Shown one piece after another: positions 2,921-20,225 of a DNA stretch of 20,225 bases. The notes under the pieces were generated by a model. That model did no database searches and had not been told where the DNA came from. It saw only the letters and a program-made list of their open reading frames with translations. Each line of letters opens with the position of its first letter. The stretch's first letter is position 1. Source of the stretch: a virus. A program made the position numbers and the translations under genes. The DNA lies in IMG/VR virus record IMGVR_UViG_3300028008_000149, positions 1 through 20,225 of that record; one strand, written 5' to 3'.

Positions 2921-4769
2921 CTTTGAAACATTTTATGATGTAGGTTTCAGCTTATCAAATTTAACAACAGAAGAATACATTAGAGACCCAAAGTTTCAAG
3001 TAGTTGGGTTTGCGGTCAAGATAGATGACGGCAAGACTAAATGGTATTCAGGTTCACATGAAGAACTCAAGGCAGCACTTGATAAAATAGATTGGGATAA
3101 TTCATTACTTGTCTGCCACAATATGCTTTTTGACGGGGCTATCTTAAGTTTTATATATAACATAACCCCAAAGATATACCTTGACACTTTGTGTATGGCT
3201 CGTGCAATACATGGAACAAACGCGGGGGGATCGTTAGCATACTTATCCAAGCATTACAATCTAGGTGAAAAAGGAACAGAAGTCCTTGACGCTAAAGGTA
3301 AAAGGTTAGAGGACTTTCAACCGCACGAACTGCATAGATATGGGCAATACTGTATCAATGACACCGAGTTAACCTATAAACTATTTCAGATTTTATCTAA
3401 AGACTTTCCCCACGACGAATTAAAACTAATAGATATAACTATTAGAATGTTTACAGAGCCTTTGCTTGAGGTTAACGACGGGCTACTTATTACAAGACTT
3501 GAAGAACTTAAGATAGAAACCCAGGAGTTATTACAGGGGTTGATGTCTAGGTTAGAGTGTGAAGATGAGGAAGCTGTTAGGAAAAAGTTAGCGAGTAACA
3601 AACAGTTTGCCGAATTGATAACCGAGTTGGGTGCAGTTGTTCCTATGAAGATATCCCCTACGACCGAAAAAGAAACCTTTGCATTAGCAAAGACCGATCA
3701 AGGATTTATAGACTTACAGGGACATGAGAACTCTTTTATACAAGAGTTGTGTGCAGTTAGATTAGGCACAAAGTCTACGATAGAAAAAACTAGGATTGAG
3801 AGGTTTATAGGTGTTGGTGCTAGGAACAAAGGGAAACTACCAATCCCTTTGAAATACTACGGGGCGCATACGGGAAGGTGGTCAGGGTCAGACAAAGTTA
3901 ACTTTCAAAACTTACCGTCGAGAGACGCACGGAAGAAAACATTGAAACAGGCGGTGGTTGCACCATATGGTCATAAGGTAATTAACTGCGATTCATCTCA
4001 AATTGAAGCTAGGATTTTAGTATGGCTATCAGGTCAGGAAGATGTCACACAATGGTATGCCGAGGGTAGAGATGTTTATTGTGAGTTTGCAAGTAAGGTT
4101 TATAACAGGAAGATAGACAAGCGAAACAAAGTAGAAAGAGCAGTTGGTAAGACTTGTATTCTAGGACTAGGATATGGAACGGGTGCTGCTAAACTTCAAA
4201 ATGTTTTGAAGCTAGGTGCGGGTGTAGAGTTTGATGAAGCCGAATGTAAAAGATTAGTTCAGGTATATAGAGAGTTGAACAATAAGGTTACAGACTTTTG
4301 GCGGACTTGTGAGAACGCGTTGCAAGATTTAGTTTATTGGCCCTCAGGGAAAGAACCATACTATTTAGATAAACATAAGACACTACTCGTAGACAAAGAG
4401 GGTATCAAGTTTCCGAACGGACTTTATATACGCTATCCCGATCTCCATGTAGATACTTCTGAATCTAACAAAAGATATTTATATAAGAAAAGATATAACA
4501 TGCAAGTCACTATTTGGGGTGGGAGTGTAACCGAGAATGTAGTTCAAGCATTAGCTAGGATTGTGATTGGGGAACAGATGATACAGATTAATGAGAAATA
4601 TAGACCCGCATTGACAGTGCATGACGCAGTTGTCTGTGTGCTACCTGATGAAGAAGTAGAATCAGGAACAAAGTATATTGAGAGCATCATGTCCGTTGCA
4701 CCTGAATGGGCAGATGGATTGCCTATTGCTTGTGAATCAGGCGTGGCTGATAACTACGGAGATTGTTAA
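2901..4769 (+). CDS. DNA polymerase, family A, with 3'-5' exonuclease domain
   Basis: A 622-residue replicative polymerase of the Pol I/T7 family that copies phage DNA with proofreading. The exonuclease domain shows Exo I D7-F-E9, Exo II H73-N-x-x-F-D78 and Exo III Y150-x-x-x-D154. The polymerase domain shows motif A with catalytic D364 (CDSSQIEAR), motif B R413-x3-K417-x7-Y425 (LGYG) and motif C H574-D575. All key residues are present, so it should be active in both modes. Tyr in motif B (Y425) is the residue that permits dideoxynucleotide use in T7-like enzymes. The start is a TTG at 2901, required because Exo I begins six codons later. AAAGGG lies a few bases upstream. I see no CxxCxGxG DnaJ-type insertion as reported in some marine phage polymerases. 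Confidence 0.96.
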   Translation: MNLITIDFETFYDVGFSLSNLTTEEYIRDPKFQVVGFAVKIDDGKTKWYSGSHEELKAALDKIDWDNSLLVCHNMLFDGAILSFIYNITPKIYLDTLCMARAIHGTNAGGSLAYLSKHYNLGEKGTEVLDAKGKRLEDFQPHELHRYGQYCINDTELTYKLFQILSKDFPHDELKLIDITIRMFTEPLLEVNDGLLITRLEELKIETQELLQGLMSRLECEDEEAVRKKLASNKQFAELITELGAVVPMKISPTTEKETFALAKTDQGFIDLQGHENSFIQELCAVRLGTKSTIEKTRIERFIGVGARNKGKLPIPLKYYGAHTGRWSGSDKVNFQNLPSRDARKKTLKQAVVAPYGHKVINCDSSQIEARILVWLSGQEDVTQWYAEGRDVYCEFASKVYNRKIDKRNKVERAVGKTCILGLGYGTGAAKLQNVLKLGAGVEFDEAECKRLVQVYRELNNKVTDFWRTCENALQDLVYWPSGKEPYYLDKHKTLLVDKEGIKFPNGLYIRYPDLHVDTSESNKRYLYKKRYNMQVTIWGGSVTENVVQALARIVIGEQMIQINEKYRPALTVHDAVVCVLPDEEVESGTKYIESIMSVAPEWADGLPIACESGVADNYGDC

Positions 4770-5439: not shown

Positions 5440-5709
5440 ATGACTTTAACAGAGGGCGCATTTATTTTAACAGTAAGTTTGAGTGGTAACTACGACGATC
5501 TAGAATTTGTAGGTTACTTCCATGACTGTCAGACGGCGATAGCATACTACCATGAGAATTGTAGTGAATATATGGCGGCGAGTTGTTTATTAACGGAGTA
5601 TAGTAATCTTCCTGACGACCACCCTAATGTATTTGGATTTGAAATAACCGAACCACAATCCTGTGGCTTCGTCGGAGTAGACCCTAAAACTTTTACAAAG
5701 GATAAATAG
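5440..5709 (+). CDS. Hypothetical protein, 89 aa
   Basis: An 89-residue acidic protein starting MTLTEGAFILTVSLSGNYDD, with a clear AGGAGA site (5428-5433). It looks alpha/beta, with N-terminal strands, a helix QTAIAYYHENCSEYMAASCLL (about 30-50) and a C-terminal strand. Four cysteines are spread without a zinc pattern. Its stop overlaps the GTG of the next small gene (TAGTG). No family assigned. Confidence 0.7.
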   Translation: MTLTEGAFILTVSLSGNYDDLEFVGYFHDCQTAIAYYHENCSEYMAASCLLTEYSNLPDDHPNVFGFEITEPQSCGFVGVDPKTFTKDK

Positions 5710-5849
5710 TGGCAAAGATTAAACAAACGGAACAAGTAAGAGAACCAGTGCATAAACGAACGAGTCAGGGGGGTAGGGTAGCCAAGACTTCTACTATGAA
5801 TAAAAGCTTTCGTAATTCGTTTAAAAAATATCGTGGACAAGGAAGATAG
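5709..5849 (+). CDS. Small basic protein ending KKYRGQGR, 46 aa
   Basis: A 46-residue, strongly basic peptide read from GTG 5709: MAKIKQTEQVREP... and a C-terminal block TSTMNKSFRNSFKKYRGQGR. A TMNK...KKYRGQGR ending is familiar from small conserved phage proteins of unknown role, which supports this frame as coding. Both borders use the same TAGTG overlap (5707-5711 and 5847-5851), which is strong positional support for a gene filling this gap. High charge suggests binding to nucleic acid or to an acidic partner. It is too short for default gene callers. Confidence 0.7.
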   Translation: MAKIKQTEQVREPVHKRTSQGGRVAKTSTMNKSFRNSFKKYRGQGR

Positions 5850-10349: not shown

Positions 10350-10652
10350 ATGTATACCGAAAGATATTTAAGAGACCTTTATTCTTTTAACGAGAAGAGG
10401 TTAGGAGTTCAGCTTGGAAGACTATGTGCTTCGGCAAACCTGCCACCTAGCGAGATAGCTAAAGTTTTAAATGTATCTCGCATGACTGTTTACAATTGGT
10501 TTAGGGGCGGTGCCGTACGAAGTAAAAATGTAGACCGCATAGAAGTGTTTATGCGGTTGGTTGAGGATAACATTCAAGCTGAAAAGCTTCCTGTTCAAAC
10601 TTATAAAGAAGCTAAACTATTTATTAAAGACTATATGCTAGGAAAATTATGA
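10350..10652 (+). CDS. Helix-turn-helix DNA-binding protein, 100 aa
   Basis: A 100-residue protein with a clear XRE-like helix-turn-helix: SEIAKVLNVSRMTVYNWFRG (34-53), where helix 2 is SEIAKVL, the turn is NVS and the recognition helix is RMTVYNWFRG. It has a strong AGGAGGT binding site (10340-10346) overlapping the SSB stop. It ends in a four-base overlap with the primase-helicase. It may be a transcriptional regulator or a replication-origin binding protein. The repeat arrays at 281-310 and 406-453 are natural candidate targets, which is inference. Confidence 0.82.
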   Translation: MYTERYLRDLYSFNEKRLGVQLGRLCASANLPPSEIAKVLNVSRMTVYNWFRGGAVRSKNVDRIEVFMRLVEDNIQAEKLPVQTYKEAKLFIKDYMLGKL

Positions 10653-13489
10653 TTAATGAGTTCTATAAAAAAGCGTTACCAAGCAGTGGAGTATATTGTG
10701 TGGCGGCAATTGATCCAATTAAGAAGATACCTAGTCATAAATTTGTGGAATCTATTGATGACATTGAAGCTGCTGTCAACCAATTTAACCGAGAAAAACA
10801 AAATATTTTTGTTGCACTTAGTTCTTTTTCAGGCTATAGCCGTAAGGCAGATGACGCAGTTTATGTAAGGTCTTTCTTTGTAGATTTAGATGTAGGAGAG
10901 GGTAAAGGGTATAGCACTAAAGACGAAGCATCACAAGCAGTAGATAAATTTGTCGATCACGCTGACCTTCCCCCGCCTATAAAAATTGATTCAGGAGGAG
11001 GCATTCATGCTTATTGGTTGTTTAATAAAGACATACCCGCAGATGAATGGAAGCCGTATGCTGAAAAGTTTAAGGACTTATGTATCAAGAGAGGATTAAG
11101 AATTGACCCTGTAGTGACTGCTGATTTAGCAAGAATACTTCGGTGTCCTGAAACATTTAATCTTAAGACTGATCCACCAAGTCCCACTAAAATTATTGAT
11201 GAGGCGCTACCCGTATATGACTTTGAGGAGTTTAAAGAATATCTAGGAAAGATTATAGACATTCAGCCATTCCCAAAGGTATCTAAAAATCAAATGCAAC
11301 TTATGAAGCTAGATAATTTTAAGTCTAGTTTTGCAAAGATAAAACAAAAAGGGTGTGCTCAAATTCAATATGTTCTTGATAACGCTAAGACTTTACCTGA
11401 ACCTTTATGGTATTCAGCATTATCTATTGCTCAACATTGTGAAGATAGAGACACGGCTATACATGAAATATCCAAAGACTATCCGTCTTATAGCCCTGAA
11501 GAGACAGAAAAGAAAGCACTTCAGTCTCAAGATAAACCTCATTCGTGTGAGACATTTAACTCTATCAATCCTGAAGTTTGTAATGGTTGTTCGCATCGAG
11601 GTAAAATTACTAACCCTTTATCATTAGGAAAAGTATTGCAAGTAGCAACATCTGAAGATGAGAACGCCCTCAAACATAATGGTGTAGCTGTTGGGGAAGA
11701 TGTTCCCCCCGCAACTGTTGATGCTATCGCAGACAAGACTGCTAAAGGAACAGGTCTAATGAAATTGCCTGAAGAACTTTATCCGTTCGTGTATGGTAAG
11801 CAAGGGGGTATCTACTATATGCCTATGGTTAAATATGATGACGATGGTGTGGCTATACCTCAAGAACCTGAATTGGTGACACTGTATGATGTATTTCCAA
11901 TCAAAAGAATCAACAGTCCTCATGACGGCGACTGCCTATTAATGAAAGCTATATTACCTCATGACCCTGAGCGAGAGTTCTTGTTACCCATGCGGTATGT
12001 TTACGCAATTGAAAGACTTAAAGAGATACTCGCAGGTAACGGAGTATTGTTTAACCCTGATGCTAAAGGAGCAAAAAATCTAATGAACTATATAATAAAA
12101 TGGGGCCACTATCTGACCGCTCAAAAGTCCGCTGAAATAATGAGAATGCAAATGGGGTGGACTCCCGATCGAGAATCATTTGTAGTGGGGGAACATGAAC
12201 TTACTCGTAAGGGTAAAGAAGTGTCTTCACCTACATCACCTCTATGTCGAGGTATTGCTAAACACTTGAATGTAAGTGGAGATTATTTGGAGTGGAAAAG
12301 AGCAGCTAATAGACTCAATCAACGCACTCTTGAACTCCATGCGTTCACACTTCTTACAGGATTTGGTTCTGTATTAATGAATTATACTTCTACTTCGGGT
12401 GTGACTTTGTGTTTAACAGGGGAGTCAGGCGCTGCTAAAACAGGTGCGTTATATGGAAGCTTATCTGTATGGGGCAACCCTAAAGACTTGTCTGTTCTAG
12501 AAGCAACAGGTAATGGTATGACAGGTAGATATTTAGGACTGCACAACATACCGTTTGGGCTTGATGAAGTAGGTAATATATTACCTAAAGACTTATCTCA
12601 ACTAATCCACAAAGTATCTCAAGGTAAATCTAAAATTAGAATGCAGGCTTCTGTTAATGCAGAAAGAGACCATGAGATGTCAGCAAGTTTGGTAGCAATC
12701 TTTACTTCTAATCATTCGTTGTATGACAAGTTAAGCACTTTGAAGAAAGATCCAAATGGAGAGGTAGCTAGACTAATTGAGTTTTCAATTAAGAAGCCAC
12801 AACTATTTAAAGATGACGCGACTATGGGTAGAGAGATATTTGATAAGTTTAGATTTAACTATGGTCATGCAGGTAGAGACTTTATATTTAACCTGTATAA
12901 ACATTCTGACGCTGAAGTTCAGCACATGATGGAAGTATGGGTGACAAAGTTTAGGGAACAGTTTGGAGAAGACACGGCTTACAGGTTTTATGAAAATCTT
13001 ATCGCAGCTACTATGACAGCAGGAGAGATTGCTTTACAAGCCCATATAATTGACTATGACCTCGACCGTATTTTTGAAAAAATTGTTAGTGAGTTAATTG
13101 CTATAAGAGACGGCGTTGTCAAGGTTAACCAAGTAGATTACGCAGGACTTGTAGGTGAGTTTATTATGAGGAATCAAACAGGTATGCTTGCGTTTAACAA
13201 AGGAACATTAGAGATGGAGCCGAGGACGGCTTTGATGATACGAGCAGAATTAGATAGTAATTTAATGTTTATATCTAAACCTGACTTCCGAAAGTTCTTA
13301 TCTGAAAATATGGTGAGTTCTCGTGAGATTGTGCACGAGTTGAATAAGATAGGTATTCAAGTGACTGAAGTTAAAAAGCGTATGGGTGCGGGGTGGAAAG
13401 ACGCAGCTGCAAGTACTCCTGTTATGGCGTATCGGTTCCCTCTTGATAGCTTTGATAAAATTCTAGAGACAATAAGTGATAACGCATAG
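10649..13489 (+). CDS. Primase-helicase fusion (AEP-like primase plus DUF927-type ATPase)
   Basis: A 946-residue bifunctional protein that primes and unwinds DNA at the fork. The N-terminal third looks like an archaeo-eukaryotic-type primase: D79-x-D81 (FFVDLDV), S115-GGG-IH120 and a later D153 with R161/R165 (ADLARILRCP). Around residues 300-320 there is a cysteine cluster (SC...VCNGC) that may bind zinc. The C-terminal part is a DUF927-like helicase/ATPase with Walker A GESGAAKTG (about 590-598), Walker B FGLDE (about 635-640) and a sensor-like IFTSNHS (about 684-690), ending in a likely winged-helix tail. It starts in an ATGA overlap with the HTH gene. It replaces the TOPRIM-DnaB type gp4 of T7-like phages. 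Confidence 0.88.
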   Translation: MINEFYKKALPSSGVYCVAAIDPIKKIPSHKFVESIDDIEAAVNQFNREKQNIFVALSSFSGYSRKADDAVYVRSFFVDLDVGEGKGYSTKDEASQAVDKFVDHADLPPPIKIDSGGGIHAYWLFNKDIPADEWKPYAEKFKDLCIKRGLRIDPVVTADLARILRCPETFNLKTDPPSPTKIIDEALPVYDFEEFKEYLGKIIDIQPFPKVSKNQMQLMKLDNFKSSFAKIKQKGCAQIQYVLDNAKTLPEPLWYSALSIAQHCEDRDTAIHEISKDYPSYSPEETEKKALQSQDKPHSCETFNSINPEVCNGCSHRGKITNPLSLGKVLQVATSEDENALKHNGVAVGEDVPPATVDAIADKTAKGTGLMKLPEELYPFVYGKQGGIYYMPMVKYDDDGVAIPQEPELVTLYDVFPIKRINSPHDGDCLLMKAILPHDPEREFLLPMRYVYAIERLKEILAGNGVLFNPDAKGAKNLMNYIIKWGHYLTAQKSAEIMRMQMGWTPDRESFVVGEHELTRKGKEVSSPTSPLCRGIAKHLNVSGDYLEWKRAANRLNQRTLELHAFTLLTGFGSVLMNYTSTSGVTLCLTGESGAAKTGALYGSLSVWGNPKDLSVLEATGNGMTGRYLGLHNIPFGLDEVGNILPKDLSQLIHKVSQGKSKIRMQASVNAERDHEMSASLVAIFTSNHSLYDKLSTLKKDPNGEVARLIEFSIKKPQLFKDDATMGREIFDKFRFNYGHAGRDFIFNLYKHSDAEVQHMMEVWVTKFREQFGEDTAYRFYENLIAATMTAGEIALQAHIIDYDLDRIFEKIVSELIAIRDGVVKVNQVDYAGLVGEFIMRNQTGMLAFNKGTLEMEPRTALMIRAELDSNLMFISKPDFRKFLSENMVSSREIVHELNKIGIQVTEVKKRMGAGWKDAAASTPVMAYRFPLDSFDKILETISDNA

Positions 13490-13502: not shown

Positions 13503-13676
13503 GTGTTTCCCTTTGAGGCTATGGAAGTCGGGGATAGTTTTTTTATACCTACGCTTAAAACTGCCGAGACTATTTATGCTATTGAGTCTGGGGCAAAAAG
13601 AGCCAAAGTAAAAGTACGCGCCTTTGTTACATTGAAAGATGGGTGTATGGGAGTTAGATGTTGGAGGTTGTTATAA
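13503..13676 (+). CDS. Small conserved phage protein (FPFEAMEVGDSFF type)
   Basis: A short protein with the signature FPFEAMEVGDSFFIP at its N-terminus and a basic middle (GAKRAKVKVRAF), a form common in phages and plasmids but without a known role. GTG 13503 is chosen because AGAGAGG lies eight bases upstream (13488-13494), giving 57 residues. A GTG at 13476 would add nine residues and overlap the primase by 14 bases. The stop TAA (13674-13676) lies within TTATAA, whose complement is the stop of the opposing giant gene. It is the last gene of the plus-strand block. Confidence 0.7.
   Translation: MFPFEAMEVGDSFFIPTLKTAETIYAIESGAKRAKVKVRAFVTLKDGCMGVRCWRLL
13671..13676. other. Shared palindromic stop TTATAA of two convergent genes
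   Basis: TTATAA reads TAA at 13674-13676 on the plus strand and TAA at 13673-13671 on the minus strand. The two convergent genes therefore overlap by six bases and end back to back with no spacer. Confidence 0.9.
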
Positions 13677-16600
13677 GCCCGATGCAATTCGTAGTCGGGC
13701 AATACTTCTAACTACATTATTCATTTGTTTTTCTACATTGGTTAGGGCGGCTCGTTTTTTATCTCCGTCCATTCCAGATTCTATTATAAGTTTTCTACGA
13801 GCTCTCAAATCTTTGAGATTGTTTGATAGTCTATTTACTTGCTTTCTAGTTCCAATCATTCTAGCGTTATCTTTACGATACTCAAACGCTTTCTTCGGAT
13901 TGTATTTCATCAGTCTATTTACTGTTGCGGTAGCCTCGTCTGATGCTTGTTTTAGTTCGTAGAAGTCGTTTAGTTTATCTCTACCTTGAGCGGTATAAAG
14001 AAGTGGAGATATAAGCGGAATATCTTTTAGCCTCATCGTAGGCTTCTCATTACCAATCATTGTATTTGCTGCCTGGTCCATAACAAACAATGCAGTAGAA
14101 CCTACAGTGCCAAAGTAAGAACGAATTATGTGGTCAGCATTAATTGGCGCTACCATGCCGGTGCTACCTAAAAGTTTAGCAAGTTCTGAGGTAGCTTCAT
14201 TGTACTGTTCTTCTGTTGCTAATCTGCTAAGTCCTAGTCCGATGAGTGGTCTACCTGAATAGAAGTTATAGTTAGTTGCCACTTCAACAGAACCTCTTAT
14301 TAACTGAGGGAATAAGTTAGGGCCCATCGCTGCATCTCTAACTGCAAGGCTCATGCCGTTAAATAATTTAGTAGCATCAACTTCATTAGTTGTACCTAGT
14401 TTAGTGACATATTGATAGGCTTGTTCTGGAATATATTTAGTAAGTAATGAAATCTCCGCACGGACAGGCAGCTTGAATCCTGTTCCAGGCACTATATAGT
14501 TTCTAAATTTAATTCGATCATCTAGCTCTTCGTACTCTTCTTCGCCAGCAACTACCATTGAATAAAGCATGTTAAACATTGTAAGGGCTAAAGCTGTTTT
14601 TAAGAACAGTATTCTTGCTGTTTGAGCATCTGTTCCTGATAGACCTTTACCTGCCATAGCATTTAGCAATACGTCCATACCCTGAAGATACGCATTAGCA
14701 AATGGAATAACATGAGTCATAGTTCTTACTGAGCTACTCGCACCTCTTTTCTGCCAGTTAATAATATTAAGTGCTCGGTTCATAGCTAGTATTTCATTAC
14801 CACCAGCAACAGATCCATCGGCTTGTCTCACTCCGCCAGACTCTAAAAGTGTCTGCACAAATATACCTCGTCGTTGAGCCAAGTCAGATCTAGATGCAAA
14901 GGCATCAGTAGCATCAACTAGTTTCTGCCACTTATTCATGTTCTCAACACCTAGTTGTCTTTGAGCTTTTAAGAATATATCTCCAGGTGTTCTACCGAAT
15001 CCACCTGCAATACCTAGTCTAGCCATTTGATCGTCTATTGCTTTAGTATCTCTAAAGTATTGGTCTCTAACATACCCGCCAATAATTTCTTTTCCTAGTT
15101 TTAATGGGCTTCTAACTCCTGAATACATTGCTGCGCCAAGAGCATCGTTAATTACTTGGTAAGTTTGAAAGACAGGGTTAGCAGTAATACCTAATCTAAA
15201 CCATTTAGCTGCTAGGCCAAACCATTTTAGTATGCCTTTGTATACAGGAAGTGCTCCTTGAATACCTATTGCTAATGCGGGATCAGAATATTCTACAAAC
15301 TTTCGTTCTCCATCAACCATAACAGGCGCTGCCGTACCAGTTTCAGGTTTCTTATCATATAGTATTAGATTGTTTTGATCGTCATGAAGTCCTACTTGTT
15401 TAGCAGCCTCATAGTTAGCATTGTTTCGCAGAGACGCACTAACCGCCCAGAAGTGTTGTTGAAGTAAGTTACCTAGGACATGCTTAGTATCTTTATCCGA
15501 ACCTGTAAACCCATACTCTCTTCCAATATCAGCAAACCCAGAAAAGTATTGTGTTATAGTCTGGTCTCCTTTACCTAAGTCCTCTATCATTTCTCGGAAT
15601 AGTGGGACATACCCTTCTCTATCTCTGTAATCATCAGCCATGTCTTTTGTATAAACCCCAGATTGCTCTAACAGATCAATTCTGTTTTTGTTAATTGCAT
15701 CAATCATTGCACCCACTTCGACAAGCACTGGGTATTGTTGGGCGTATGCTAGTCCTGGTTCAATAGCTGCTTCTTGTTCTGGAGTAATAGTAATACTTTC
15801 ATTTTTTTCTTTGTCTCTTTCATTTTGTTTTTGGTAGCGTGCGATAAGTTTATTAAGCTGTTTTTTATCGTCGCCTTTGGCTGTCTTAAGTTCTTGATTG
15901 GCAGTTTTTATAGCCTGTTTTCTAGATGCAATATTAGCTGCTCTTTGTTCCACTCTATCTAGTTCTAGTCTATACCGTCTAGCAGAAGTGTAAGACTGTA
16001 TAAGTCCCTCAGCCAATTCAATAGATGTTTGATCTGCTAGTTGTTGTCTTAGTTTTACTAGATTATTTATGTTGTTTTCGTCAATCACAACTCTGGCAAC
16101 ACGGTCTTCACCGAGTACAACTTTTCCTTCCGCTGCAGATTGCGAAGCCATCACACTATCATCTAGTGCTTGAGACATTATTATGTCACCTCTTACGTTT
16201 CCTAAGCCGTCAGTAACGGCACCTTCATATTCGTTCAAAAGTTTTCTTTCTATACCTGCACCTGAGTAACCCATCTTTATTCTTACTTGATTCCATAATG
16301 AAGCTAGTGAGTCTACTGGTTGGTTTTTAACTTTTTCAAAGCCGTCTACAAAGTTACTATAGAATGTTTTACTATCGTCTTTAACTCCAGAAAGGTATAC
16401 GCTAGTCTGCTCTAGTCCTGTAGGTACATCTGTTTTAGAATACATAAGATCAGTCTGTAGATCTCCCATGCCCAAAGCAATTTGTGGCGCGCCTGAATCA
16501 GATGTAATGTTGTTGTAGAACCCATCAAATCCTAAAGCATTTAATATAGTAGGCCATGGAGTTGTCATCCTGTCTATATAAGGTCGAGGAGGTCCGTCAT

Positions 16601-19600
16601 CTAAGTTTTCTAAAGGGCTAGGAAACAACGGCTTTCCATCTCTATAATTTACCGCGTTATACCCAGGATATCTTATTCCTAAATCTCCACTCCAATCAGT
16701 AGCTATATACTGAAGGGTCATTCCAGCTTCAATTGTTCTAGAGAAATTATCAACGGGCGTATTTAACTGCTTGTTAAGCATTTCTGCTTCTTTTTCGTTT
16801 ACTTTGTAATCTGTTGATACTACTTTTAACGGTCTATCTACTTGATAGCCAAATACATTGCCTCTATCCATGGGACCAACTTGGTCATCAAAAGGTCTGT
16901 TTCGATCTGTTCTATATTGTCTGGCAAAAGCATCGGCAGTGTCTAGTTCTTGGTGAAAAAATATTAAACCTCCTTCAGTGGTAAACCCTGATTGACTTTT
17001 TATAGGCGGCTCAGCCAACAATGTATTATCATTATCGCGTATTTTATTTCCAAGAGGGCGAGGAACTCCGTGATATAACATCTCTCCTGACCTTAAAGTT
17101 AAACCATATTCTTCAAAGCCACCCCCAATTTCTTTGGCTTCTTTTTCTCTTTTTAGCTCATCTTTTTTGTTTTGTTCTACCGACATCTTTCTTAATACTC
17201 TAGTTAGTGGTTTGTTCCTAGTAGTATCTATTACAGACAGTTGAACTGGAGTTAGTCCCAATGATGACGCTATTATTTGATTGTTTGTAACCTTATCGCT
17301 TTTAGCTAGAGCTGATCTAGTAGAATACATAATTAAGTCTTGCATATCTGCAGTAGTTAATGTATTAGGATTGAAGAACCCAAGCTTACGTAAGAAGTTT
17401 TTAACCGCTGCAACTACTCGTTTGAACAATGTATTTTGTGGACTTTGCTCACCTATTTTAGCCATGACTTCTTGTAGATATAACTTACCACCCACTTCAA
17501 GGTCTGGATATTTTCTGCCTACTTCGTCCCATACTGCTTTAACTTTAGCGTCAGTATTTTTAAGACTGTTTAGTCTACCTAGAGTAGCACCATAGCTATC
17601 ACCTAGCATACGCTCTAGTCCGTAGTGTTCTCCAAGTTCATGCAGTAATACTTTTCTACCTTGTCCCGGCATTACTTTAGATGCAACGATATAAACCTTA
17701 TTTGATCTAGGGTCGTATGCACCGTTAGTTGTAAATTCGTATCCTTTAGTTCTAGGAGGTAGTTCAGTTAAGTGGTTAACAATAACTAATTGTCCTGAGT
17801 CGATTGCTTTGTCAATGTCTGAACCAAATTCTTTTCTTAATGATTCGGTAATAGAATCTGCAGTCTCTACAGGACCTAGTGTATCAGACCTAGACTCTTG
17901 TACTGCTAGTTGTTCTTTTAGTTTTTTGATTCGATCTCTTAACCGTTTAGGAACTCTTTCACTTGCTTTTATATAACTGCCCGCTTGATACTCAGCTTCT
18001 CTAAGTTCAAACGCTAGTCTGTCTTGTTCTGTTTCAGTTCGTGACTCTTGTATATCGTCTACTTTTTTGTAAAAGGTGCTATCCCCTATCTGTTCTTCAG
18101 TTTCTTTTTGTATAGGGTTTATTTTGTATGGAACAGGCGCGATATAGTTGTCGTCCGCAAAGTAGTAATCCTCAGCTTTAGTTCCAATAGGTTCACCTTT
18201 TAATACATTCGTTATAGCGTCCTCTACTGCTTGTCGGCGAAACCTTTTGGTGTCGTACATTTCTACAGAAACACCTCGTTCAATAAGCATCTCAGAATAA
18301 TTTAGCCCTTCTAAGTCCTTACCAAATATTTTTTCTAGTTCCTTTTCAAATTTATCGCGTTGCTTTTGAGCCTCTTTCAAAAGACGGTCATATTGAGGAT
18401 TATCCTCCTCCATAAACCTGTTTCTTCTAGCGCGATCAAGGTCTTGATAGGTGTCTATAAGACTTTGAGGTATTTCTATGCCATTAATCATAGGCACTAC
18501 ACTTTGTACACCTTCTATTTTTGGTATTATATAATCCTCAACCGCTTTCTCTGATTTATCTACAAGTGTTGCTTGTCTACCTGCTTTAATAGCTTCTGCA
18601 CCTGTCACACCTGACCCGGCAAATGGATCAAGCACTGACTCTCCTTCAAATGTAGAGTTAGAAATAAGAGCGCTAAGTAGTTGAGGTGCTTTTTCAGTTG
18701 AATAGCTGTTACGACCTGAGGGTCTAACAAATCTAAAGTTAAGATTATCTAAAGTTTTTTCACCTTCTCTTGCTGTTCCAGATTTTGTAAATAAGAATAT
18801 TCTTTCAGCTGATGCTTCTTTCCCTCTTACATTTGTTACAGGTTTTCCATTCTTAAATAATTTTTTGTATTCTCCTTCCCCTACTACAGAAAGTCCTACA
18901 TCATTCATAGCATTAAGATACGATAGCATATCGTATTGTGCAGAAGGAGCTCCTGATAACATAAGATAGATATGACCATCGGTTTCTTTTATTAAATCTG
19001 GAACACTCTCCATTGCTTTTTTAAATTCTGGTCTCTTCATAAACTCATAATCTTTAATGCCCCTATTACCCCCTCTAACAGCGCTACTAAAGTATGCAGG
19101 GTCTAGGAATATCATGTCAAACGGTTCGCGTTTACCCGCTTTAATTTCTTCTACAAATTTAGGCAAAACATTTACTGCGTCGCCTACTTCTATATGAGCT
19201 ATCTTTTTGCCGTCTGGTGTAGTTAATGTATAGACCCCTTTATCTACTCTTTCAAACTTACCAGTCTTAGCGCCTTGACCTGTTATGCGACGTACATTAG
19301 GTTCTAATATATCTGTTTGTTCTGCTATTTCTTTTATTGTAAGAGGCGTGTCAGACTTTTCTAATGTTTCTATAACTCTTTGCTCTTGTGTGGGTTGTAG
19401 TTTATCTAGGTTCTTTAAGGTTTTTTCGTTTTCCCCCTCATAACTTTTAGCTGAAGCACGTAGATTTGCCAGCCCTTCGTTAATAGCTTCTTGTTTTGTA
19501 GCAAAGTAAGGGCCATTCTGCAGTGAGTAATACATTGCCGCGGAACCAGAGCCACCAGTTTTTGTACTAAATTCAGTTCTATAGACAAATCCTTTTGGCG

Positions 19601-20225
19601 TTTCGGCTACTTCTACAAGTGCAAACTCGCGAGATGATTTAGTTTTAGGAGTTACAATAACCTGCTCTATGTTAGCATTGTTTTCTACTTCATCTATTGT
19701 TTTGCTTTGATTTCTTAAATCGTCAAACTTGGGGTCTGAAGGATAGACATCCCTTGTATCAGGTCTTTTTGGTCTAGGCGTAGTAGGAGTTTCTTGTGTG
19801 GGTGTTACTGCTGGTTGTGTTGTAGATTCTTGAGGTATGCCCATAGGTCCTAGATTTAGATCGTACTCCTGTACTCTAGTGTCAGTTGCTTTTCCCTCCT
19901 GCTCTAAAGTTTTTGCAATTTCTTCGGCTCTTTGTTTACCACCTACTTTTTCTTGCCACACAGTCTCTACGTCTGTTCCCTTAATCTTTCCGAACACTAC
20001 ATATCGAAGGTCTTGCGGCTGACTCTTAACGTATTCTTCTATAAGGTTTTCTAAATCACTTCGAGTTTTATCTGTATAATAATCCCCTATATATTTTTGT
20101 AGTTCTCTATAATAATCAGACGTCTTAAGATCTGGTAGTGTGCTATCGCGATCTGGTTTTCTTGATTTGTACGCGTCAATAAGTGTTTTAGGTATAGACT
20201 GACCATTGATTTCTACGACTGCTCC
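13671..20225 (-). CDS. Giant polyvalent protein, N-terminus beyond the window (partial)
   Basis: One frame runs from TAA 13673-13671 to the right edge without a stop; the visible part is 2184 residues. A GTG at 19997 could look like a start, but the frame is open for 76 further codons upstream. In order (window positions): motif INGxxIPxxLIDxY (about 20160-20210), Pro/Thr-rich linker, winged-helix (19212-19400), beta-class DNA methyltransferase (18528-19205), second LIDxY motif (18420-18500), charged helical linkers, zincin-like HELGEH domain (around 17625-17642), ADP-ribosyltransferase-like domain (16428-17105), coiled coil (about 15800-16000), and a long C-terminal region resembling LPD38 (13968-15260). 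Such polyvalent proteins are thought to be packaged or ejected with phage DNA to shield it and disarm host defences. The role here is inferred from architecture. Confidence 0.9.
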   Translation of the reverse strand, partial: GAVVEINGQSIPKTLIDAYKSRKPDRDSTLPDLKTSDYYRELQKYIGDYYTDKTRSDLENLIEEYVKSQPQDLRYVVFGKIKGTDVETVWQEKVGGKQRAEEIAKTLEQEGKATDTRVQEYDLNLGPMGIPQESTTQPAVTPTQETPTTPRPKRPDTRDVYPSDPKFDDLRNQSKTIDEVENNANIEQVIVTPKTKSSREFALVEVAETPKGFVYRTEFSTKTGGSGSAAMYYSLQNGPYFATKQEAINEGLANLRASAKSYEGENEKTLKNLDKLQPTQEQRVIETLEKSDTPLTIKEIAEQTDILEPNVRRITGQGAKTGKFERVDKGVYTLTTPDGKKIAHIEVGDAVNVLPKFVEEIKAGKREPFDMIFLDPAYFSSAVRGGNRGIKDYEFMKRPEFKKAMESVPDLIKETDGHIYLMLSGAPSAQYDMLSYLNAMNDVGLSVVGEGEYKKLFKNGKPVTNVRGKEASAERIFLFTKSGTAREGEKTLDNLNFRFVRPSGRNSYSTEKAPQLLSALISNSTFEGESVLDPFAGSGVTGAEAIKAGRQATLVDKSEKAVEDYIIPKIEGVQSVVPMINGIEIPQSLIDTYQDLDRARRNRFMEEDNPQYDRLLKEAQKQRDKFEKELEKIFGKDLEGLNYSEMLIERGVSVEMYDTKRFRRQAVEDAITNVLKGEPIGTKAEDYYFADDNYIAPVPYKINPIQKETEEQIGDSTFYKKVDDIQESRTETEQDRLAFELREAEYQAGSYIKASERVPKRLRDRIKKLKEQLAVQESRSDTLGPVETADSITESLRKEFGSDIDKAIDSGQLVIVNHLTELPPRTKGYEFTTNGAYDPRSNKVYIVASKVMPGQGRKVLLHELGEHYGLERMLGDSYGATLGRLNSLKNTDAKVKAVWDEVGRKYPDLEVGGKLYLQEVMAKIGEQSPQNTLFKRVVAAVKNFLRKLGFFNPNTLTTADMQDLIMYSTRSALAKSDKVTNNQIIASSLGLTPVQLSVIDTTRNKPLTRVLRKMSVEQNKKDELKREKEAKEIGGGFEEYGLTLRSGEMLYHGVPRPLGNKIRDNDNTLLAEPPIKSQSGFTTEGGLIFFHQELDTADAFARQYRTDRNRPFDDQVGPMDRGNVFGYQVDRPLKVVSTDYKVNEKEAEMLNKQLNTPVDNFSRTIEAGMTLQYIATDWSGDLGIRYPGYNAVNYRDGKPLFPSPLENLDDGPPRPYIDRMTTPWPTILNALGFDGFYNNITSDSGAPQIALGMGDLQTDLMYSKTDVPTGLEQTSVYLSGVKDDSKTFYSNFVDGFEKVKNQPVDSLASLWNQVRIKMGYSGAGIERKLLNEYEGAVTDGLGNVRGDIIMSQALDDSVMASQSAAEGKVVLGEDRVARVVIDENNINNLVKLRQQLADQTSIELAEGLIQSYTSARRYRLELDRVEQRAANIASRKQAIKTANQELKTAKGDDKKQLNKLIARYQKQNERDKEKNESITITPEQEAAIEPGLAYAQQYPVLVEVGAMIDAINKNRIDLLEQSGVYTKDMADDYRDREGYVPLFREMIEDLGKGDQTITQYFSGFADIGREYGFTGSDKDTKHVLGNLLQQHFWAVSASLRNNANYEAAKQVGLHDDQNNLILYDKKPETGTAAPVMVDGERKFVEYSDPALAIGIQGALPVYKGILKWFGLAAKWFRLGITANPVFQTYQVINDALGAAMYSGVRSPLKLGKEIIGGYVRDQYFRDTKAIDDQMARLGIAGGFGRTPGDIFLKAQRQLGVENMNKWQKLVDATDAFASRSDLAQRRGIFVQTLLESGGVRQADGSVAGGNEILAMNRALNIINWQKRGASSSVRTMTHVIPFANAYLQGMDVLLNAMAGKGLSGTDAQTARILFLKTALALTMFNMLYSMVVAGEEEYEELDDRIKFRNYIVPGTGFKLPVRAEISLLTKYIPEQAYQYVTKLGTTNEVDATKLFNGMSLAVRDAAMGPNLFPQLIRGSVEVATNYNFYSGRPLIGLGLSRLATEEQYNEATSELAKLLGSTGMVAPINADHIIRSYFGTVGSTALFVMDQAANTMIGNEKPTMRLKDIPLISPLLYTAQGRDKLNDFYELKQASDEATATVNRLMKYNPKKAFEYRKDNARMIGTRKQVNRLSNNLKDLRARRKLIIESGMDGDKKRAALTNVEKQMNNVVRSIARLRIASGL
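13677..13700. terminator. Hairpin at the convergent junction, possible terminator
   Basis: GCCCGA (13677-13682) and TCGGGC (13695-13700) form a 6-bp GC-rich stem around a 12-base loop, directly after the plus-strand stop. No clear T tract follows on either strand, so it may act weakly or by stalling. It lies inside the 3' coding end of the giant gene. Confidence 0.4.
13968..15260 (-). other. LPD38-like C-terminal region of the giant protein
   Basis: A long helical, partly hydrophobic region with FRLGITANPVFQTYQVINDA, WQKRGASSSVRTMTHVIPFANAYLQG and PINADHIIRSYFGTVG, which together resemble the large polyvalent protein-associated domain LPD38 seen at the C-terminus of many phage internal proteins. 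A hydrophobic helix near ILFLKTALALTMFNMLYSMV could enter or cross a membrane, which would fit DNA ejection. Family assignment is from memory. Confidence 0.55.
16428..17105 (-). other. ADP-ribosyltransferase-like domain
   Basis: Within the giant protein. The core signature is MLYHGVPRPLG (the H-containing first motif), GLIFFHQELDTADAFARQY (second), GYQVDRPLKVV, and a closing GFDGFYNNI...GAPQIAL segment, as in the ART fold of polyvalent proteins. The catalytic Glu/Gln of the third motif is not clearly placed, so activity is uncertain. Known phage ARTs modify host RNA polymerase or translation factors; the target here is unknown. Confidence 0.55.
17448..17867 (-). other. Zincin-like metallopeptidase domain
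   Basis: Within the giant protein. RKVLLHELGEHYGLERMLG contains HExxH (17625-17642), the zinc ligand pair and catalytic Glu of zincins. Upstream strands (KGYEFTTNGAYDPRSNKVYI) fit the edge strand and loop of such folds. A third ligand is not obvious. Could release the protein's own domains by cleavage or attack a host protein. Confidence 0.65.
18420..18500 (-). repeat. Second copy of INGxxIPxxLIDxY motif inside the giant protein
   Basis: Residues INGIEIPQSLIDTY follow the methyltransferase domain directly. The same pattern, INGQSIPKTLIDAY, lies near the right edge of the window (about 20160-20210). Nine of fourteen positions are identical. It may be a short helical docking or linker module between domains. 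Confidence 0.55.
18528..19205 (-). other. DNA methyltransferase domain (beta class, N6A/N4C type)
   Basis: Within the giant protein. Motif IV comes first as FDMIFLDPAYF (about 19093-19123) and motif I follows as SVLDPFAGSG (about 18609-18638), then a VDKS acidic loop. This order is that of beta-class amino-methyltransferases. The catalytic tetrapeptide is DPAY rather than DPPY. Likely methylates phage DNA on entry to block host restriction; activity is not proven. A winged-helix (19212-19400) just before it may supply DNA binding. Confidence 0.8.

Follow-up and report, generated by a model that had tools for sequence, protein, structure and literature searches.

Polyvalent proteins are the closest described systems to the gene analysed here. 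LPD38 is listed among their domains as phage-type only, and the zincin variants described for them include the HEXXXH form; T4 Alt, which offers an ADP-ribosyltransferase comparison, modifies a host protein (PMC5512222). For JC1 gp69, a protein of 4515 aa, PMC9144972 reports detection in CsCl-purified virions by mass spectrometry, with 51 unique peptides. We located LPD38 at residues 4195-4401 of gp69, near its C-terminus.

The window, meaning the whole stretch of DNA that was analysed, corresponds to a virus record in IMG/VR with a length of 20,225 bp, the right third of which holds a single minus-strand frame. The giant protein encoded there is a member of this known class, having at least two disparate domains in one polypeptide (methylase, zincin and LPD38). 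As the first-pass annotation had described, the frame is open from its stop codon (13671-13673) to the right edge, over 2184 residues, and the extension to the true start is supplied by a sister contig from a different metagenome, L003 (IMGVR_UViG_3300025120_000392, 28,479 bp), in which the homologous ORF is complete at 2578 aa. The two contigs share 93.7-95.2% DNA identity over long stretches, and 90.7-97.4% in the parts of the giant gene common to both. The first giant codon of the window corresponds to residue 847 of the L003 protein, i.e., it lies 846 residues after the L003 start, and the full length of the gene is probably ~3,030 codons, as estimated from this one sister contig. The parts shared with the closest relatives are under purifying selection (dN/dS 0.13-0.48), so the frame is not a chance one. 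The features of the giant gene are as follows, with residues numbered from the window's first codon.

13671..20225, minus strand: giant polyvalent protein gene, 3' part; 2184 codons and stop, with the 5' ~846 codons beyond the contig edge (by L003)
19839..20225, minus strand: shared backbone, aa 1-129; 97% DNA identity to L003, ending at the start of cassette A
20166..20210, minus strand: IPxxLIDxY motif, copy 1, aa 6-20, INGQSIPKTLIDAYK; short repeated motif
18498..19838, minus strand: cassette A, aa 130-576, an unknown domain, winged helix and DNA methyltransferase; unrelated sequence in its place in L003
19221..19382, minus strand: winged-helix-like segment, aa 282-335; HTH_IclR similarity, below cut-off
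18537..19121, minus strand: beta-class DNA methyltransferase, aa 369-563; Pfam match, motifs IV (DPAY), X and I (DPFAGSG) intact
18444..18488, minus strand: IPxxLIDxY motif, copy 2, aa 580-594, INGIEIPQSLIDTYQ; at the right border of cassette A
17286..17909, minus strand: zincin-like metallopeptidase of the HEXXXH class, aa 773-980; conserved domain alignment
17625..17642, minus strand: HELGEH active-site motif, aa 862-867; invariant in the 26-sequence alignment
16455..17285, minus strand: cassette B, aa 981-1257, ART-like block; missing in L003 and diverged in L002
16488..17096, minus strand: tentative ART-like segment, aa 1044-1246 (LYHG, EGGLIFF, ALGFDGFY); from motif order
13674..16454, minus strand: conserved C-terminal core, aa 1258-2184, mainly helical; common to many phage giants
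14010..14543, minus strand: LPD38 Pfam domain, aa 1895-2072; E 3.7e-22

The other genes of the window lie on the plus strand, pointing at the giant gene, and include those for a family A DNA polymerase, a helicase, a PD-(D/E)XK exonuclease, a T7-type single-strand binding protein and a DUF927 primase/helicase. The product of a small ORF at 1583-1888 resembles Holliday junction resolvases of the Hjc type (Pfam 2.7e-6). An additional ORF of 172 aa is present in L003 (L003:18401-18919, at about 5690 of the window) within ~490 bp that are absent from the window, between homologues of the window's small ORF 5440-5709 and of the exonuclease at 5849. No close relative of the window was found among isolated phages.

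We favour, with a probability of about 0.7, a reading in which the giant protein is packaged together with ejection proteins, injected, and cut by its own zincin, freeing the methylase and the ART-like enzyme. A conserved carrier, made up of an N-terminal module, the zincin and the C-terminal LPD38 core, would be packaged in the head alongside the ejection proteins encoded just upstream and would enter the cell with the phage DNA. There the zincin would most likely cut its own polypeptide to free the enzyme segments; judging from their families, the winged-helix/DNA methyltransferase would then mark the incoming phage DNA against restriction and the ART-like domain would modify a host protein. 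The enzyme segments occupy slots that are swapped among close relatives by recombination.

The virion association proposed in the first-pass annotation is well supported by the LPD38 family, by gene order in L003 and by the published mass spectrometry of virions of JC1, whose gp69 is a distant LPD38 giant. The LPD38 assignment itself is firm (PF18857, 79.8 bits against a curated cut-off of 27). In L003 the giant gene starts two bases past the stop of an unassigned 447-aa ORF, which is in turn preceded by the gene for a 428-aa protein of DNA ejection family phrog_4287 (6e-17). The giant gene is therefore the second after the DNA ejection protein gene, in the late or virion-gene neighbourhood known for polyvalent proteins. 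L029, which is less closely related, has in this position one gene for an ejection protein and one for an internal virion protein carrying a transglycosylase domain. By analogy with JC1 gp69, an LPD38 giant present in virions, the protein of the window is probably carried within the virus particle and passed into the bacterium.

The core was modelled with AlphaFold2 from 66 sequences (aa 1240-2184), giving a mainly helical structure (pLDDT 78.7, pTM 0.75). Foldseek found no match for it among solved structures (best E 0.039, TM below 0.2) and 65 matches among viral models at E < 0.001, including those of E. coli phage PTXU04 and Ralstonia phage Alix. A hydrophobic tail for passage through the envelope, suggested earlier, is rejected, as hydrophobic sequence is confined to aa 1874-1892 (Kyte-Doolittle 1.45) and the final 113 residues are hydrophilic, with a net charge of +13.

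These properties bear on the strongest alternative, for which the odds are only slightly worse than even: the giant may be mainly an ejection-channel or DNA-translocation protein, standing where T7-like phages have their large internal protein, with the LPD38 core essential and the cassettes optional. It overlaps in part with the reading that we favour, and the two differ in which part of the protein is essential. No other part is as conserved as the core, which defines the family; the giant gene comes last in the ejection gene set, cassettes can be missing, and a lytic transglycosylase domain is found in some structural relatives of the core and in JC1 gp69. On the other hand, the core fold matches no solved ejection protein, and the protein contains little hydrophobic sequence.

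The zincin is the part of the favoured reading on which the release of the enzymes would depend. The peptidase noted in the first pass is borne out by a conserved HEXXXH domain, although none of the Pfam models detects this region. In an alignment of 26 such domains the H, E and H of the motif are invariant, together with two downstream glutamates, Glu 919, the candidate third zinc ligand, and Glu 926. AlphaFold2 predicts the region confidently (pLDDT of ~90), as three strands and the motif helix; the best Foldseek hit among solved structures had an E-value of 0.29, with a submitted model that contained a long unmodelled part.

In a scan of IMG/VR with a profile of the core, 568 stretches passed, and the matches listed gave 80 loci with the core. 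As this set was picked by core similarity, the retention of the motif applies to the LPD38-core family only. Among the matches listed, 53 of 54 complete giants have HExxH or HExxxH between the N-terminal part and the core (mean 1.3 and maximum 5 in shuffles); the aligned HEXXXH domain is present in slightly under half of the giants, and carrying the motif is in itself no proof that a given giant has a peptidase. The first 330 residues of the L003 protein are recognisable in 19 giants, including L003 itself, among the matches listed. The cargo is more varied: ART-PolyVal occurs in 19 of 45 middle regions (again among the matches listed), methylases in a few, and pyrophosphatase, ParB-like, helicase, GNAT and HATPase domains singly. 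Since the motif is kept while the cargo changes, the zincin behaves as part of the carrier and not as cargo. The giant ORFs of L016, L053, L082 and L087 contain recurring HEGRHR-containing segments, ParB-like in look.

Retention of the motif alongside changing cargo also favours self-processing over attack on host proteins. Self-cleavage is nevertheless not a given, because N4 vRNAP is packaged uncut despite having such a peptidase domain (PMC5512222). The timing of a cut could also differ from that in the favoured reading: the zincin may be a maturation protease that cuts the giant before or during head assembly, the products being packaged, as inferred for P1 DdrB. We regard this as unlikely, while giving weight to the processing of DdrB prior to packaging (PMC5512222) and to the near-universal presence of the motif in the giants; against it stand the uncut N4 protein and the available text of PMC9144972, which is silent on cleavage of gp69 in JC1 virions. 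The proteolysis of host proteins that had been proposed in the first pass is possible in principle, since zincin effectors occur in other conflict systems (PMC5512222), but a zincin that cuts host defence proteins is improbable for a motif that is found in 53 of the 54 complete relatives listed and does not behave like cargo.

Returning to the favoured reading, the enzymes that would be freed differ in how clearly they can be recognised. The methyltransferase is unambiguous (Pfam N6_N4_Mtase, 2e-13), with intact residues in motifs IV (DPAY, aa 375), X (EKAPQLL, aa 511) and I (DPFAGSG, aa 533), the order of the beta class. Its closest phage proteins are free-standing DNA methylases, no match to a helicase partner was obtained in P0001 or P0002, and no relatives of cassette A were found in other LPD38 giants. 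The winged helix named with it is plausible from similarity to HTH_IclR, but the match (E = 0.0044) falls under the curated cut-off. The IPxxLIDxY motif, considered as a repeated domain, was ruled out as such, as the match covers only ~15 residues.

For the ADP-ribosyltransferase, the motif order LYHG...EGGLIFF...ALGFDGFY and the slot adjoining the zincin fit the earlier suggestion, but profiles do not confirm it: there is no Pfam match to ART-PolyVal (PF18760) even at E 10, a local profile gives ~2 bits and hhalign a probability of 27-43%. The motif pattern was found in 0 of 20,000 shuffles, a count that is not independent, since the pattern was composed after viewing the sequence. Similar patterns are present in L059 (YHG, EGNLIWF, ALGYDGLF) and in the fragment L002 (ALGYDGYF). 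In relatives such as L034, L036, L041, L044 and L046, the zincin is followed directly by ART-PolyVal and this by the core, so that ART-PolyVal fills the slot which the ART-like block has in the window. Tandem ART-PolyVal copies are present within one giant protein in L068, L069, L082 and L087.

The comparison with L003 shows how these blocks vary between close relatives. Cassette A (bases 388-1726 of the window's gene) is replaced in L003 by ~790 unrelated bases, or ~263 aa, and cassette B (bases 2940-3772) by ~30 bases; the borders of both are sharp and inside one gene, with >90% DNA identity to L003 on either side. The core of L002 is 96% identical to that of the window and is joined in frame, at the same place, to a clearly diverged ART-like end. 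In L016, whose core is 51-57% identical, an ART-like cassette precedes the zincin between two 39-bp direct repeats; the repeat is a linker of which the window has a single copy. That the cassette differences are assembly chimeras is very improbable, for while all three contigs are metagenomic and cassette A is found in one contig only, the frames are open across all cassette borders, L002 independently has its diverged ART-like end in frame with the same core, and the L016 cassette has its flanking repeats. Searches of IMG/VR and of phage, plasmid and genome collections gave no donors of cassettes A and B, with the exception of L059 for the ART-like block.

With both enzyme blocks replaced or absent in L003, while the remaining shared DNA is >90% identical, the exact order and combination of domains is not supported as the compact counter-defence package first envisaged; it represents the current loadout, one of several, and not a fixed set. 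We tentatively suggest, as an idea with rather less than even chances, that the LPD38 giants may be a cartridge system, in which an invariable ejection carrier, equipped with its own protease, would deliver swappable enzyme cassettes, and closely related phages would exchange these by recombination at linkers to alter their counter-defence set.

The giant core (13674-16454) is closer to L002 (dS 0.13) than to L003 (0.21), and the neighbouring primase gene (10649-13489) is much closer to L003 (dS 0.06) than to L002 (0.70); these opposite affinities indicate recombination between the two convergent genes. Direct repeats were considered as a general exchange site and rejected: they are present in L003 (31 bp), L016 (39 bp) and L025, but are not commoner per base in giants (7 of 83 giant ORFs, 498 kb, versus 5 of 221 other long ORFs, 469 kb). 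Faster evolution as a special trait of the giants was likewise ruled out. Between the window and L003, a pair disturbed by recombination, dN/dS is 0.35-0.48 for the giant versus 0.01-0.05 for replication genes; in other pairs it is 0.09-0.15, similar to or below that of neighbouring late genes.

The window and L003 provide a natural experiment, in which one injected-type protein differs between two close phages in its methylase and ART-like blocks. In the LPD38-core family the protease motif is a carrier feature, so that the self-processing proposed for polyvalent proteins could be put to the test in E. coli phages sharing this carrier.

Compared with its sister, the window's protein has a backbone 79-87% identical and the same gene neighbours, whereas the L003 protein is without the methylase and the ART-like block and has unrelated sequence at the place of cassette A. 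With the polyvalent proteins of Iyer et al. (2017, PMC5512222) it shares unrelated enzyme domains in one polypeptide, LPD38, the HEXXXH zincin and the late-gene neighbourhood. It differs in combining a beta-class methylase with a winged helix and no helicase partner, in an ART-like domain that falls outside the ART-PolyVal model, and in a slot exchange seen between closely related phages. In DarB a SWI2/SNF2 helicase is fused to the methylase, whereas the window's methylase stands without a helicase. JC1 gp69, from a Bcep22-like phage and DarB-like, resembles the window's protein in LPD38 near the C-terminus, a methylase-like region and a late position, and is found in virions; it differs in having LPD3, a helicase region and a domain like lytic transglycosylases (PMC9144972). 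The link between the two proteins does not go beyond membership of the LPD38 family. The core is 23-24% identical over 550-670 aa to that of giant proteins from Vibrio phage 1.232.O, Aeromonas phage phiARM81mr and E. coli phages Pondi and PTXU04. A HEXXXH zincin precedes the core, as in the window, in all of these but PTXU04, whereas their cargo is of other kinds, for example ResIII/Helicase_C, an MTS methylase and GNAT in 1.232.O.
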